NCBI GenBank assembly: GCA_003222195.1
Contig: QHVB01000024.1
Span: 310,001 to 374,000, forward strand
Length of the DNA: 64,000 nt
Direction of reading: 5' to 3'
From: Gemmatimonadota bacterium
GTDB taxonomy: Bacteria > Gemmatimonadota > Gemmatimonadetes > Gemmatimonadales > GWC2-71-9
Shown here: positions 53,800 through 58,479 of the stretch, in pieces
Numbering within the stretch: position 1 is the stretch's first letter
How the letters are laid out: the number at the start of each line of letters is the position of its first letter
Position numbers and translations under genes: made by a program
The notes under the pieces: model-generated
The model's database searches: none
Seen by the model: only the letters and a program-made list of their open reading frames with translations
Told to the model about the DNA's origin: nothing

Positions 53800-55143
53800 C
53801 TGCTTTCTGACCCCATCGTCGCGCTCGCGACGCCGCCGGGTCGCAGCGCACTTGCCCTGATTCGTCTTTCGGGCGCCGGATGTATCGCCATCGCCGCCCG
53901 CTGCCTCGAACCGTTCCACCCCACACCGCCACGCACGGTCTTCCGCGCGCGTCTGCGGCATCCCGAGTCCCGCGAGCCCATCGACGATTGCCTCGCCGCC
54001 TGCTTTCCCGCGCCGCACTCCTACACGGGCGATGATCTCGTCGAGATCTCGACCCATGGCGGACTGATCGTACCGGCGGCCGCGGTCGCGGCGCTGGTCG
54101 CGGCGGGGGCGCGACCAGGGACGCCGGGGGAATTCACCAGGCGTGCCGTCCTCAACGGCAAGATGGATCTCCTCCAAGCCGAGGCGACGGCCGATCTCAT
54201 CGACGCCGGTTCCCCCGCGCAACGCCGCCGCGCGCTGCAGCAGCTGGAGCGCGGGCTGTCGGACCGCCTGGCGGCGCTCCGCGCTGCGATTCTCGAGCTC
54301 GAGGCGCTGATCGCCTACGACATCGATTTCCCTGAGGAGGATGAGGGACCGGTAAGCCCCGAGCGCGTGCGCGGTGCATGGTCCGCGGTGCGCGGGCGCG
54401 TCGCCGATCTGCTTCGAACCGCCCCGGAGGGCGAGCGGCTGCGTGAGGGCGCTTTGCTCGTGATCGCGGGCCCCCCCAACGCCGGGAAGTCGTCGCTCTT
54501 CAACGCGCTGCTCGGCACCGAGCGCGCGATCGTCACGGAGATTCCGGGGACGACGCGCGACGCGATCGAGGCGCAGGCCGTGATCGAGGGTTTCCCCTTC
54601 CGGCTCGTGGACACCGCCGGATTGCGAGACAGCGACGAGCGCGTCGAACGCCTTGGCATCGAAGTAAGCAAGAAGTATCTCGGGGCGGCGGATCTGGTCC
54701 TATTCTGCGAGGAAGGGGAGAAGGGACGGGGGACGGGGGACGGGGAATCGTTTATCGCGGCATGCACTGCACCGGTAGTCCGAGTGCGAACGAAAGCCGA
54801 TCTGCTACCCGTCCCTCGTCACTCGTCCCCCTGCCCTGTGTCAGCGGTGACAGGGGAAGGTCTCCCGGAGCTACGCCGCCAGCTGGCCGAAGTCGCGTTC
54901 GGCCGCCTCTTGGCGCTCGGTGACGTCGAGCCCGTCGTCACGCGCGCGCGCCATCGCAGCGCGCTGGAGCGTGCCCTGGCCGAGCTGGACGCGTTCTGGG
55001 CGGCGCGGACGGGCGGAGTGGATGCGGCGGCGACGGCGACCCACCTGCGCGCTGCCGTCCTCGCGCTCGACGACTTAATCGGGACCGTTACGCCAGAGGA
55101 TGTGCTCGACCGCGTGTTCGCGGCGTTCTGCGTGGGGAAGTGA
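53800..55143 (+). CDS. mnmE: tRNA modification GTPase MnmE
   Basis: About 447 residues. An N-terminal tetrahydrofolate-binding domain (DPIVALATPPGRSALALIRLSG, TPGEFTRRAVLNGKMDLLQAE) precedes a G domain inserted in the helical domain: G1 GPPNAGKSS, G2 GTTRD, G3 DTAG, G4 TKAD. The terminal FCVGK carries the conserved cysteine. With MnmG it modifies the wobble U of several tRNAs. There is no ATG, GTG or TTG at the expected start; CTG at 53800 gives the right N-terminus. The G domain contains a G-rich inverted-repeat segment around G4. Confidence 0.94.
   Translation: MLSDPIVALATPPGRSALALIRLSGAGCIAIAARCLEPFHPTPPRTVFRARLRHPESREPIDDCLAACFPAPHSYTGDDLVEISTHGGLIVPAAAVAALVAAGARPGTPGEFTRRAVLNGKMDLLQAEATADLIDAGSPAQRRRALQQLERGLSDRLAALRAAILELEALIAYDIDFPEEDEGPVSPERVRGAWSAVRGRVADLLRTAPEGERLREGALLVIAGPPNAGKSSLFNALLGTERAIVTEIPGTTRDAIEAQAVIEGFPFRLVDTAGLRDSDERVERLGIEVSKKYLGAADLVLFCEEGEKGRGTGDGESFIAACTAPVVRVRTKADLLPVPRHSSPCPVSAVTGEGLPELRRQLAEVAFGRLLALGDVEPVVTRARHRSALERALAELDAFWAARTGGVDAAATATHLRAAVLALDDLIGTVTPEDVLDRVFAAFCVGK
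54723..54837. repeat. GGGACGG tandem and complementary tract inside the mnmE G domain
   Basis: GGGACGGGGGACGGGGGACG (from 54723) recurs in inverse form as CCCGTCCCTCGTCACTCGTC (from 54808). In frame, the first encodes EKGRGTGDGES after G3 and the second PVPRHSSPC after the G4 TKAD. Both spots are variable loops of MnmE. Confidence 0.6.
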
Positions 55144-56449
55144 GCGCCTCGATCATGGTCCGCGCCTTGGCAAGTGTCTCCTGGTACTCCGCCGCCGGCT
55201 CGGAATCCCACACGATTCCCGCGCCCGCATGAAAGGTGGCGTTGCCGCCGTGTACCACGATTGTGCGGATGGGAATGTTGAAGTCCATCGCGCCGGTCGC
55301 CGAGACATAGCCGATCGCGCCGCAGTACAGACCGCGCGGTGCACGCTCCAGCTCCGCGATGATCTGCATCGCCCGAATCTTTGGCGCGCCCGTGACCGAT
55401 CCACCCGGGAACGCCGCGCGCAACAAATCGAAAGCGTCGGCCCCGCCGGCGAGCTCGCCGGTGACGGTGGAAACGAGATGATGGACCGTGGGGTGTGACT
55501 CGAGCGCAAACAGCCGGGGAACCTGGACCGACCCCGGCCGGCATACCTTCCCCAGATCATTTCGCAACAGATCCACGATCATCACGTTCTCGGCGCGGTC
55601 TTTCTCGCTTGTCACCAACTCGCCGGCGAGCGCGCGGTCTGTCGCCGGGGAGCTGCCGCGCGGGCGCGTCCCCTTGATGGGCCGCGCCTCGGCGACGCGC
55701 GTGGTGGCATCGAGCCGCAGAAAGCGCTCCGGGGAGATGCTGGCGATGTGTGCGTCGCCGAACTCCAGATACGCGCCGAACGGTGCAGGATTGCGCCCGC
55801 GTAAGCGGCGATAGAGCGCGAGCGCCGAGCCGGAGAACGGCGCGTGGAAACGCTGCGAGAGATTGACCTGATAGACGTCCCCGGCGGCGATGTAGTCGCG
55901 CACGCGCGAGACGGCGGCCTCAAACTCTGACGGGGCGAAGTTGGATTGCGGCGGCGCCGGGCTGGACGCCGCGGGATCGCGAATCGCCGATGCCGGGGCG
56001 GCGAGTCGCGCACGCACCCACGCAGCACGCGCTCCCGCCTCCGCCTCGCTCCCGGTCGCGATGACCCACGCCGTCTGCTCCAGATGATCCCAGGCAATGA
56101 CCCAGTCGTAGAGCGCCAACGCCACGTCGGCAATTCGTGGCGTGTACCGGTCGGCCGCCGGCCGCGCCACGCGCTCCAGCTCCGCACCCCAATCGTAGCC
56201 GATGTAGCCCGCGATCCCGCCCTGGAACGGCGGGAGCCCGGGTAACGGCGCCTGGCGCTGGCTCCGCAGCATGTCGCGCGCGGCGTCGGGCGTGCGCGCG
56301 ACGGCCACCGGATCCGCCGTCAAAAACGAGTAGCGGCTCAGCGCACCCTGAGCCGAGCTGTCGAGGAAGAGCAGGTGGGGATGTCCGCTGAAGCGGACGC
56401 AGGTGCCGAAGCGATCGGGGACGGGGACGAGAGGTACGGCGATCGTCAC
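55088..56449 (-). CDS. pabB: Aminodeoxychorismate synthase component I
   Basis: 453 residues of the anthranilate/aminodeoxychorismate synthase I family. The active-site motif PIKGTRPRG has the lysine that marks PabB; TrpE has PLAGT there. Other motifs: SQRFHAPF, SPERFLRL, ENVMIVDLLRNDLG, FPGGSVTGAPKIRAM and the FHAGAGIVWDSEPAAEY end. It converts chorismate plus ammonia to aminodeoxychorismate for folate. A GTGA overlap with phhB fixes the GTG at 56449. The 3' end overlaps convergent mnmE by 56 nt, with a charged C-terminal tail. Confidence 0.94.
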   Translation of the reverse strand: MTIAVPLVPVPDRFGTCVRFSGHPHLLFLDSSAQGALSRYSFLTADPVAVARTPDAARDMLRSQRQAPLPGLPPFQGGIAGYIGYDWGAELERVARPAADRYTPRIADVALALYDWVIAWDHLEQTAWVIATGSEAEAGARAAWVRARLAAPASAIRDPAASSPAPPQSNFAPSEFEAAVSRVRDYIAAGDVYQVNLSQRFHAPFSGSALALYRRLRGRNPAPFGAYLEFGDAHIASISPERFLRLDATTRVAEARPIKGTRPRGSSPATDRALAGELVTSEKDRAENVMIVDLLRNDLGKVCRPGSVQVPRLFALESHPTVHHLVSTVTGELAGGADAFDLLRAAFPGGSVTGAPKIRAMQIIAELERAPRGLYCGAIGYVSATGAMDFNIPIRTIVVHGGNATFHAGAGIVWDSEPAAEYQETLAKARTMIEALTSPRRTPRTRGRAHPLA

Positions 56450-56796
56450 GATCCGACAAATTTCTTGGTCGTGCCGCGCAGCGCGCTGCTCCCCGCTTGT
56501 GGCCGCCACAGCGCGGTCCGCTCGATGAGCTGTGCCAGCTCCACGTCACTCGCCGTGATGCCGCCCGCGCTATGCGTCCACAGCTTGACCTGCACCTTAC
56601 CCCAGCTTATCGCGAGATCGGGGTGGTGATCGGCGGCCTCCGCGAAAAACCCGATGGCGTTCACGAGCATCAACGTCGTCGGCCAGCCGTCCGTGGTGTA
56701 CTCGCGCAGGATCGCGCCGTTCTCGAGGCGCCAACCCGGCAGGCTCTTCAATCGTTCGGCAATCTCGGATGGTGACAGCTTAGTCGAGGGTTTCAC
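56446..56796 (-). CDS. phhB: Pterin-4a-carbinolamine dehydratase
   Basis: 116 residues. The PCD fold and active-site motif are clear: LPGWRLENGAILREY, FFAEAADHHPDLAISWGKVQVKLWTHSAGGIT, a near-perfect match to the HHP-x-W-x-V family signature. It dehydrates 4a-hydroxytetrahydropterin, and homologues also act in molybdopterin or folate recycling. GTG 56796 overlaps the PTPS stop by 17 nt; its own stop overlaps pabB. An N-terminal extension to 56874 would lie within the PTPS gene and is rejected. Confidence 0.93.
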   Translation of the reverse strand: MKPSTKLSPSEIAERLKSLPGWRLENGAILREYTTDGWPTTLMLVNAIGFFAEAADHHPDLAISWGKVQVKLWTHSAGGITASDVELAQLIERTALWRPQAGSSALRGTTKKFVGS

Positions 56797-57274
56797 GGTA
56801 GCTCGCTGACTGGCCGAAGTTTTCCTCCACTTCGACCTCGATGGTCTTGAGATGGAAGGCACCGAGCTCGGCACGCACCCGGGCCGCGAGATACTGCGCC
56901 AGCATCTCCACCGTCGTATTCGGGATCGGCAGGATCACGCAGTCGCCCGCGGGGAACACATAGCGCGGCTGCCCGGCAAACGCGACGCGCAGGCTCCCGT
57001 TCTCCTCGGAGATCTTGAGCTGGGGATTGTCGCGCGGCAGGAGCACGCGATGATCGAGCTCGGCGGTGAGGCTGCGCATCACCTTCTTCACCGCGGAGAA
57101 ATCGACGACGAACCAGCTGTCTTTCTCGAGCCCGCCCTCGACAACCAGGCTGGCGCGGTAATTGTGCCCATGAAGCTTCTCGCAACGGTGGCCGGCGAAT
57201 GTGATGAAATGCGCCGCCGCAAAGACGAGGTCTTCCTTGGTGATTGCTACCTTGAATTCGCCGCGCGTTCCCAT
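56780..57274 (-). CDS. 6-pyruvoyltetrahydropterin synthase / QueD homologue
   Basis: 164 residues. Zinc ligands His22, His35 and His37 and the catalytic Cys31 are in AAHFITFAGHRCEKLHGHNY. Residue 32 is Glu, so the motif is CExxHGH, combining the Cys of QueD/PTPS-I and the Glu of the folate-pathway PTPS-III. LDHRVLLPRDN and IPNTTVEMLAQYL are family-typical. Located beside phhB and pabB, it may serve both queuosine and folate synthesis. ATG start at 57274. Whether it is bifunctional cannot be read from sequence alone. Confidence 0.93.
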   Translation of the reverse strand: MGTRGEFKVAITKEDLVFAAAHFITFAGHRCEKLHGHNYRASLVVEGGLEKDSWFVVDFSAVKKVMRSLTAELDHRVLLPRDNPQLKISEENGSLRVAFAGQPRYVFPAGDCVILPIPNTTVEMLAQYLAARVRAELGAFHLKTIEVEVEENFGQSASYRETLD

Positions 57275-57286
57275 GGTCCCGGTAAT

Positions 57287-57538
57287 CTACTCGGGGGGAG
57301 GAGCCTCGCCGGTCGACAACCGCCAGACCTCGTCCGCCAGCCACTCCAGCCGCTGCTGAGCGTAATCGAGCTCCGCCGGCGTCATGGTTTTGGCGCGGCG
57401 CGCGATGTCCCGCGTGTGACTGAGCAGCTCGTCCAGAACCTCACGCAGGGGCCGGTTCCGGCGCCGCTCCCGAACGACAGGGGCGGCGGACACCGGCCGG
57501 GGTGTCGACGACGCCGATCGTTTGCCGCGGGTAGTCAC
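57287..57538 (-). CDS. Small hypothetical protein (83 aa)
   Basis: 83 residues, basic and disordered-looking at the N-terminus (GKRSASSTPRPVS), then two helices (REVLDELLSHTRDIARRAKT, YAQQRLEWLADEVWRLS). The size recalls exonuclease VII small subunit, but the conserved XseB motifs are missing, so I do not assign it. Its ATG overlaps the upstream protease stop as ATGA and it sits 12 nt before the PTPS gene. Probably translated as part of that operon. Confidence 0.7.
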   Translation of the reverse strand: MTTRGKRSASSTPRPVSAAPVVRERRRNRPLREVLDELLSHTRDIARRAKTMTPAELDYAQQRLEWLADEVWRLSTGEAPPPE

Positions 57539-58479
57539 GCCGTCTGGATCCCCGTAGCGCGATCATCAGCTTGCCGCAGTTCTTCGACCGCCGCCCGCAC
57601 GGTCGATGCCGCGCCGTGCTCCGCCAGGTAGTTCTCCACCAGCCGGAGCCCGAGGTAATAGCCTGAGCGCTCGGGAAGCACTTTGCCGGCGAGCAACCGC
57701 GCCGCCGGACTCATCCCGCCCGACAGATAGCGCAACCGCAGACCGAGACCGGTCGAGTCGAGGTCGCTGGCGGAGGCACGCCGCAGAAAAGCGTCCAGCT
57801 CGCGCAGTCTCCGATACTGGCGCCGGTTGTAGCCGAAGTACTCCCAGGGCTCGAAGCCCGGCGCGACGGCCTGCGAGGCGGCGATCGCCACACCTTCGTT
57901 GACGACCAACTCGCGCAACGTCGCGCGCGAGCCCATCTCCCAGGCGTCGTAGTAGCTTCCCAGCTCGGCCACGATACGGCGCATCGCCGCGCGGCTCGTG
58001 GGGGACGTGTAGCGCAGCGCGTGCGCGACTTCGTGCGCGATCCAGAGCGGCAGCAGCGCAGGGGCGAGGCCCATGCCGTAGGTCTGCGCATTGGCCCGGC
58101 CCGTAAAGTGCTCGAGGCAGACGAACGCGATCCCGCGCCCGCCCACGACCAGCTCGCCCGCATTCGCGGCGCCGACACCGACCATGAGGTAGAGATCGAC
58201 CGGACAGTCGGCTTCCAGCAGCTCCGCAGCGCGGCGCAGGGCGTCCTCGGCGATCGCGACGACGTCCACGTCCTCGAGCATGCGCCGTAGATCGGAGCGG
58301 TCGGCGCGCATCGCCGTCGCGATGATCGGCTCGGCGTGCGGCGACGCGGGATCGAGGACGTAGTTCTGCCAGTAGGCGCTCAACACCGGACGGTGGCGAT
58401 CGAGATACTCGTGGTATGCCGCGGAACGATCTGACGCGGAGAGCGTCGCGAGGAATTCCGGAACGAGATTGACGAGCAT
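57535..58479 (-). CDS. Predicted zinc-dependent protease, DUF2268-like
   Basis: 314 residues without signal peptide. The zinc motif HEVAH occurs in LPLWIAHEVAHALRYTSP, and a downstream LVVNEGVAIAASQAV supplies a probable third ligand Glu, the gluzincin-like arrangement of DUF2268 proteins. The rest is helical. No characterised substrate. First gene of a coupled run with the 83-residue protein, PTPS, phhB and pabB. Confidence 0.82.
   Translation of the reverse strand: MLVNLVPEFLATLSASDRSAAYHEYLDRHRPVLSAYWQNYVLDPASPHAEPIIATAMRADRSDLRRMLEDVDVVAIAEDALRRAAELLEADCPVDLYLMVGVGAANAGELVVGGRGIAFVCLEHFTGRANAQTYGMGLAPALLPLWIAHEVAHALRYTSPTSRAAMRRIVAELGSYYDAWEMGSRATLRELVVNEGVAIAASQAVAPGFEPWEYFGYNRRQYRRLRELDAFLRRASASDLDSTGLGLRLRYLSGGMSPAARLLAGKVLPERSGYYLGLRLVENYLAEHGAASTVRAAVEELRQADDRATGIQTA

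Follow-up and report, generated by a model that had tools for sequence, protein, structure and literature searches.

A CExxHGH protein of the PTPS-III lineage as the predicted replacement of FolB in a group of Gemmatimonadota

The residues that precede the HGH pair distinguish several kinds of enzyme within the PTPS family (COG0720): an excerpt of PMC5041015 gives CxxxHGH for QueD, ExxHGH for PTPS-III and CExxHGH for PTPS-I/III hybrids, in agreement with the subdivision given in a preliminary description of the DNA studied here. The Plasmodium PTPS converts dihydroneopterin triphosphate to 6-hydroxymethyl-7,8-dihydropterin in a reaction that requires Glu38 (PMC2229834, in the portion available), and replacement of FolB by PTPS-III is already known in bacteria (excerpt of PMC3223725). 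In the literature searched, the string CExxHGH occurred in PMC5041015 only, and no paper was found joining Gemmatimonadota, folate and 6-pyruvoyl enzymes.

The present locus lies in a 64,000-nucleotide stretch of Gemmatimonadota DNA (the window), where three genes follow one another on the same strand:

56780..57274, minus strand: PTPS-III-lineage protein of 164 aa with CExxHGH, ATG start (PF01242, Plasmodium PTPS match and motif)
56446..56874, minus strand: pterin-4a-carbinolamine dehydratase (PCD, 'phhB'; PF01329, 97.3 bits; NF002017, 95 bits, cut-off 80)
55088..56509, minus strand: PabB, aminodeoxychorismate synthase component I (TIGR00553, 388 bits, cut-off 328)

The first of these frames coincides exactly with the PTPS homologue bearing Cys31 and Glu32 that had been reported there, and its product matches PF01242 at 87.5 bits (cut-off 22.4). 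Its active-site stretch, GHRCEKLHGHNYR, holds Cys31, Glu32, His35 and His37 in the motif C31-E32-K-L-H35-G-H37 (CEKLHGH); by analogy, His22, His35 and His37 are the putative zinc ligands. CExxHGH was found in all 30 orthologues from whole genomes and in 52 of the 53 orthologous loci on named contigs, the 53rd (L110) ending at a contig edge before the motif, and neither Cys31 nor Glu32 varies in alignment A1, whose 35 rows are the window protein and 34 of these 53 loci; the structure prediction was built on the same alignment. Because the motif is invariant across orthologues, its occurrence by chance was rejected. The named close relatives come from metagenome-assembled genomes of Gemmatimonadetes, and the more distant ones from Acidobacteria, Gemmataceae and Nitrospinota. 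One genome has, beside the intact copy, a further piece of such a PTPS gene that is broken by a stop codon (G118:C155:5508-5780).

When all PDB sequences were searched, the best matches to the window protein were the PTPS of Plasmodium vivax and P. falciparum (best E=1.9e-24, residues 17-161), whereas QueD-type entries matched its N-terminal half only, at E=2.7e-9 or weaker; the gap widened when a profile of the orthologues replaced the single sequence (7.6e-38 for Plasmodium PTPS versus 4.8e-14 for the QueD type). The predicted fold (mean pLDDT 90.1) likewise gave TM values of 0.81-0.83 against Plasmodium PTPS and 0.47-0.53 against E. coli QueD and a Pseudomonas relative. A tree of 154 rows was built from 212 of the 214 listed PTPS matches, exact copies and matches shorter than 95 aa being left out, after removal of two of every three Cx5HGH rows (104 reduced to 34) and addition of 10 named orthologues and 2 Plasmodium segments; PTPS genes were listed in full for 39 of the 121 genomes sampled, and elsewhere low-scoring ones are represented only among the matches listed. 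In this tree the orthologues and the two Plasmodium enzymes fall into one group of 42 rows (100/99), a join that carries a long-branch warning at L066 and at Plasmodium, and the QueD rows form a separate group (26 rows, 100/95). Since the protein also scores 71.4 bits against the QueD equivalog TIGR03367, below the cut-off of 89.25, lies outside the QueD clade and comes from a genome in which the queuosine pathway is missing (see below), its identification as a canonical QueD was rejected.

That phhB and pabB adjoin the PTPS gene had also been reported, and both do lie downstream on its strand; PabB reached 387 bits against trpE_most, under the cut-off of 517.7. Judged from the sequence, the true start of the PCD gene is probably the GTG at 56796, overlapping the end of the PTPS gene, and that of pabB probably the GTG at 56449, overlapping the PCD stop codon. 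If these starts are right, both junctions overlap, which suggests a single transcription unit. Two further genes lie upstream of the PTPS gene, encoding an 83-aa protein with no family match (57287-57538) and a DUF2268 predicted zinc protease (57535-58479), each of which occurs near the PTPS gene in 16 of 83 orthologous loci, in close relatives only. Linkage of pabB was seen in 10 of the 83 loci, many of them short, so its adjacency is by itself weak evidence. The most direct link to folate occurs in G031, where folK and then folP come immediately after the orthologue; as this was the sole case of folK linkage in the 83 loci (FolK and FolP queries), folK linkage as a general pattern was rejected. 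Queries with QueC, QueE and FolE gave no match in these loci.

A PCD gene is the immediate neighbour of the PTPS gene in 21 of the 83 loci, some of them from near-identical species. Such an arrangement would suit a PTPS-II, that is, a 6-pyruvoyltetrahydropterin synthase supplying tetrahydrobiopterin, with the adjoining PCD recycling the cofactor, and 6-pyruvoyltetrahydropterin is a second product of the Plasmodium PTPS (PMC2229834, in part). However, the aromatic amino acid hydroxylase (PF00351, phhA) was not detected in the genome that contains the window, the search for biopterin partners having covered this hydroxylase, and the PTPS-II motif CxxxxxHGH is not matched, the Cys being placed at -4 and not -6 from the first His. 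For want of PF00351 a biopterin role is disfavoured in this genome, and we consider it highly improbable; for the same reason 'phhB' is a loose name here. Nor was the presence of the orthologue significantly associated with the hydroxylase within the window's family (p=0.17), a value that, like the other co-occurrence p-values, ignores shared ancestry and so overstates the independence of related genomes.

The preliminary description had proposed that the protein may replace FolB, and had pointed to folB, queC, queE and queF as the genes to look for. In this genome, which is 99.79% complete and comprises 3.5 Mb in 95 contigs, FolE (249.7 bits) and HPPK/FolK (118.5 bits) are present and FolB was not detected in a search with PF02152, the aldolase family that was covered. 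The queuosine genes checked were QueC, QueF and TGT, of which TGT is present. QueF was represented by just a sub-threshold cross-hit inside FolE, and no credible QueC was found: the QueC profile gave two matches, one of which, in a frame of 653 aa, scores 27.2 bits and covers profile positions 4-60 out of 210. This match exceeds the Pfam cut-off of 22, but similar ones occur in many of the sampled genomes and true QueC scores above 200 bits; it would thus represent another PP-loop enzyme. The one further PTPS gene is a Cys-less paralogue. Hence neither folB nor a separate queD, which together had been named as the finding that would speak against the proposal, was found.

The distribution of FolB across the phylum carries the argument further. 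Our sample comprised 121 genomes, each at least 90% complete, of which 70 have HPPK. Among these 70, a CExxHGH PTPS alone was found in 31 (counted as a protein of the window's clade or of a second clade, with FolB absent), FolB alone in 34, both in four (G023, G038, G102 and G105) and neither in one, so that exactly one of the two was found in 65 of 70; a FolB match of 23.2 bits in G045, below the cut-off, was scored as absent. Within the window's family the corresponding numbers for 29 HPPK genomes were 22, 6, 1 and 0. FolB is absent from all 51 genomes that lack HPPK, three of which carry a PTPS from one of the two CExxHGH clades: G081, together with G104 and G106, which belong to the window's family and have the orthologue with no HPPK match. 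A third, small CExxHGH group (G017, G047 and G101) falls in another clade of the tree and lies outside these counts; because it occurs in FolB genomes, loss of FolB goes with membership of the clade and not with the motif as such. Many of the 51 genomes with neither HPPK nor FolB matches, which include the single-contig G016, G036 and G071, do have FolE; the organisms of this set may be auxotrophic for folate or may use an unknown pyrophosphokinase.

The single HPPK genome with neither FolB nor a two-clade CExxHGH PTPS, G030 (L176, L292 and L310), has PTPS genes of the QueD type and the Cys-less type. It indicates either another solution to the FolB step or a missed gene, and the former would agree with the view that the CExxHGH protein is a pterin-binding or other non-folate protein and that something else replaces FolB. 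An invariant catalytic motif speaks against this view, and the near-exclusion between the protein and FolB in 65 of 70 folK genomes would be hard to explain by it; we give it only the slightest probability.

A further proposal, that the protein also serves queuosine, found no support for this organism. A dual PTPS-I/III enzyme would supply the folate pathway with 6-hydroxymethyldihydropterin and the queuosine pathway with 6-carboxytetrahydropterin, and CExxHGH has been published for just such hybrids (excerpt of PMC5041015). The presence of TGT in this genome speaks for such a role; yet, with no credible QueC and no QueF found, 6-carboxytetrahydropterin would have no known consumer here. Nor was there a significant association between the orthologue and QueC (within the family, p=0.57; in all 121 genomes, p=0.089). 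In this comparison QueC was scored as present when its match exceeded 200 bits, as in 72 of the 121 genomes (G094, at about 110 bits, and weaker matches were scored as absent); the searches for QueF and TGT covered 39 of the genomes. Most relatives with QueC possess another Cys-bearing PTPS: among the 19 family genomes in which QueC and the orthologue occur together, 17 have a Cx5HGH PTPS and one, G019, has a QueD-group PTPS, the only one among the 19, on a 4.4-kb contig. The remaining genome, G108, has neither of these types; its PTPS genes are the CExxHGH orthologue and the Cys-less paralogue, queD was not found, and a queF-queC-queE cluster is present (G108:C133:66876-68700; L147). There no candidate other than the CExxHGH protein is evident for the QueD and folate jobs, and a dual role is possible, although G108 is a draft that is 96% complete. 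In G034, conversely, QueC is present and the only PTPS is of the Cx5HGH type, so that these genomes cannot be sorted cleanly by the published motifs. For the window protein we judge a dual function very unlikely.

The pattern of residue retention bears on the same question. QueC is absent from 8 of the 30 genomes that bear an orthologue of the window's clade, and neither Cys nor Glu has been lost in any of the eight. The second CExxHGH group comprises 12 tree rows: all eight of its genomes with HPPK have Glu; of the four without HPPK, G081 alone has it, and G072, G113 and G115 keep Cys and lack Glu. Thus, Glu follows folate and Cys does not follow queuosine, and the retention of Cys in the eight QueC-less genomes means that the 'dual' motif is no proof of dual function. 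The proteins of G072, G113 and G115 (L225, L206 and L213), with CRNLHGH and CSRLHGH, amount to a set of natural mutants at the folate residue. Because Cys outlasts QueC in all eight cases and, of the four folK-less genomes of the second group, three have lost Glu but not Cys, we tentatively suggest, while holding it to be somewhat doubtful, that CExxHGH is no hybrid marker here, Cys31 either serving the folate reaction or giving a second pterin product that is handled by the adjoining PCD, and hence being kept after the loss of queuosine. For the annotation of an often misannotated family, the caution is that CExxHGH does not prove a folate/queuosine dual enzyme.

The Cys-less paralogue (L002 1495-1875, G000:C48:199485-199844, and L270-L291) retains the HxH pair and has lost the catalytic Cys and Glu. 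It was found in all 23 family genomes that have the window's orthologue and in none of the six that do not. Its neighbours include FdhD in 12 of 23 loci and, in 8 of 23, an ABC transporter of the tungstate/molybdate type; the paralogue may be linked to the molybdenum or tungsten cofactor.

We propose that the window protein is, in all likelihood, a PTPS-III enzyme of the Plasmodium folate-bypass lineage that replaces FolB. The suggestion that it may do so is now well supported by the failure to detect FolB beside FolE and HPPK, by the near-exclusion across the phylum and by Plasmodium enzymes being its closest relatives of solved structure in sequence, profile and predicted fold. Its substrate would be 7,8-dihydroneopterin triphosphate from FolE; with a zinc site formed by His22, His35 and His37 and Glu32 as the catalytic residue, roles assigned by analogy with the enzyme of PMC2229834 (in part), the side chain would be cleaved to yield 6-hydroxymethyl-7,8-dihydropterin, which would pass to FolK. 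Weighing against this proposal are the four genomes with both enzymes, G030 with neither, the orthologues of G104 and G106 without HPPK, the presence of Cys31 as in QueD, the linkage of folK in 1 and of pabB in 10 of 83 loci, and the long-branch warning at the Plasmodium join. The predicted function would fill a missing folate step for a group of soil Gemmatimonadota and would make the phylum as a whole a clear-cut example of mutual replacement between two unrelated enzymes.

Among the known systems, the Plasmodium PTPS/PTPS-III (PDB 1Y13, 2A0S, 3LX3, 3LZE and 3M0N) gives the best match along the greater part of the chain, the segment around FPxxDC ahead of the C-terminal helix included; both proteins have Glu at -3 from HGH, both occur where FolB is missing and the same product is proposed, although identity is about 32% and the parasite enzyme has R-E where the bacterial protein has C-E. 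The PTPS-I/III hybrid (excerpt of PMC5041015) has an identical motif, but the queuosine half lacks partner genes in the window's genome, as judged by gene content only. QueD/PTPS-I (PDB 4NTM and 3QN0) shares the fold family and the Cys at -4 from HGH, yet belongs to another clade; the window protein falls under its equivalog cut-off, in a genome without QueC or QueF. The FolB dihydroneopterin aldolase (PF02152) shares the proposed product and the place in the pathway before FolK, but is of another protein family and acts on dihydroneopterin, not its triphosphate (PMC2229834, in the portion available). As FolB replacement by PTPS-III is already known in bacteria, the window protein represents a further case, to which it adds a modest caution about the motif.
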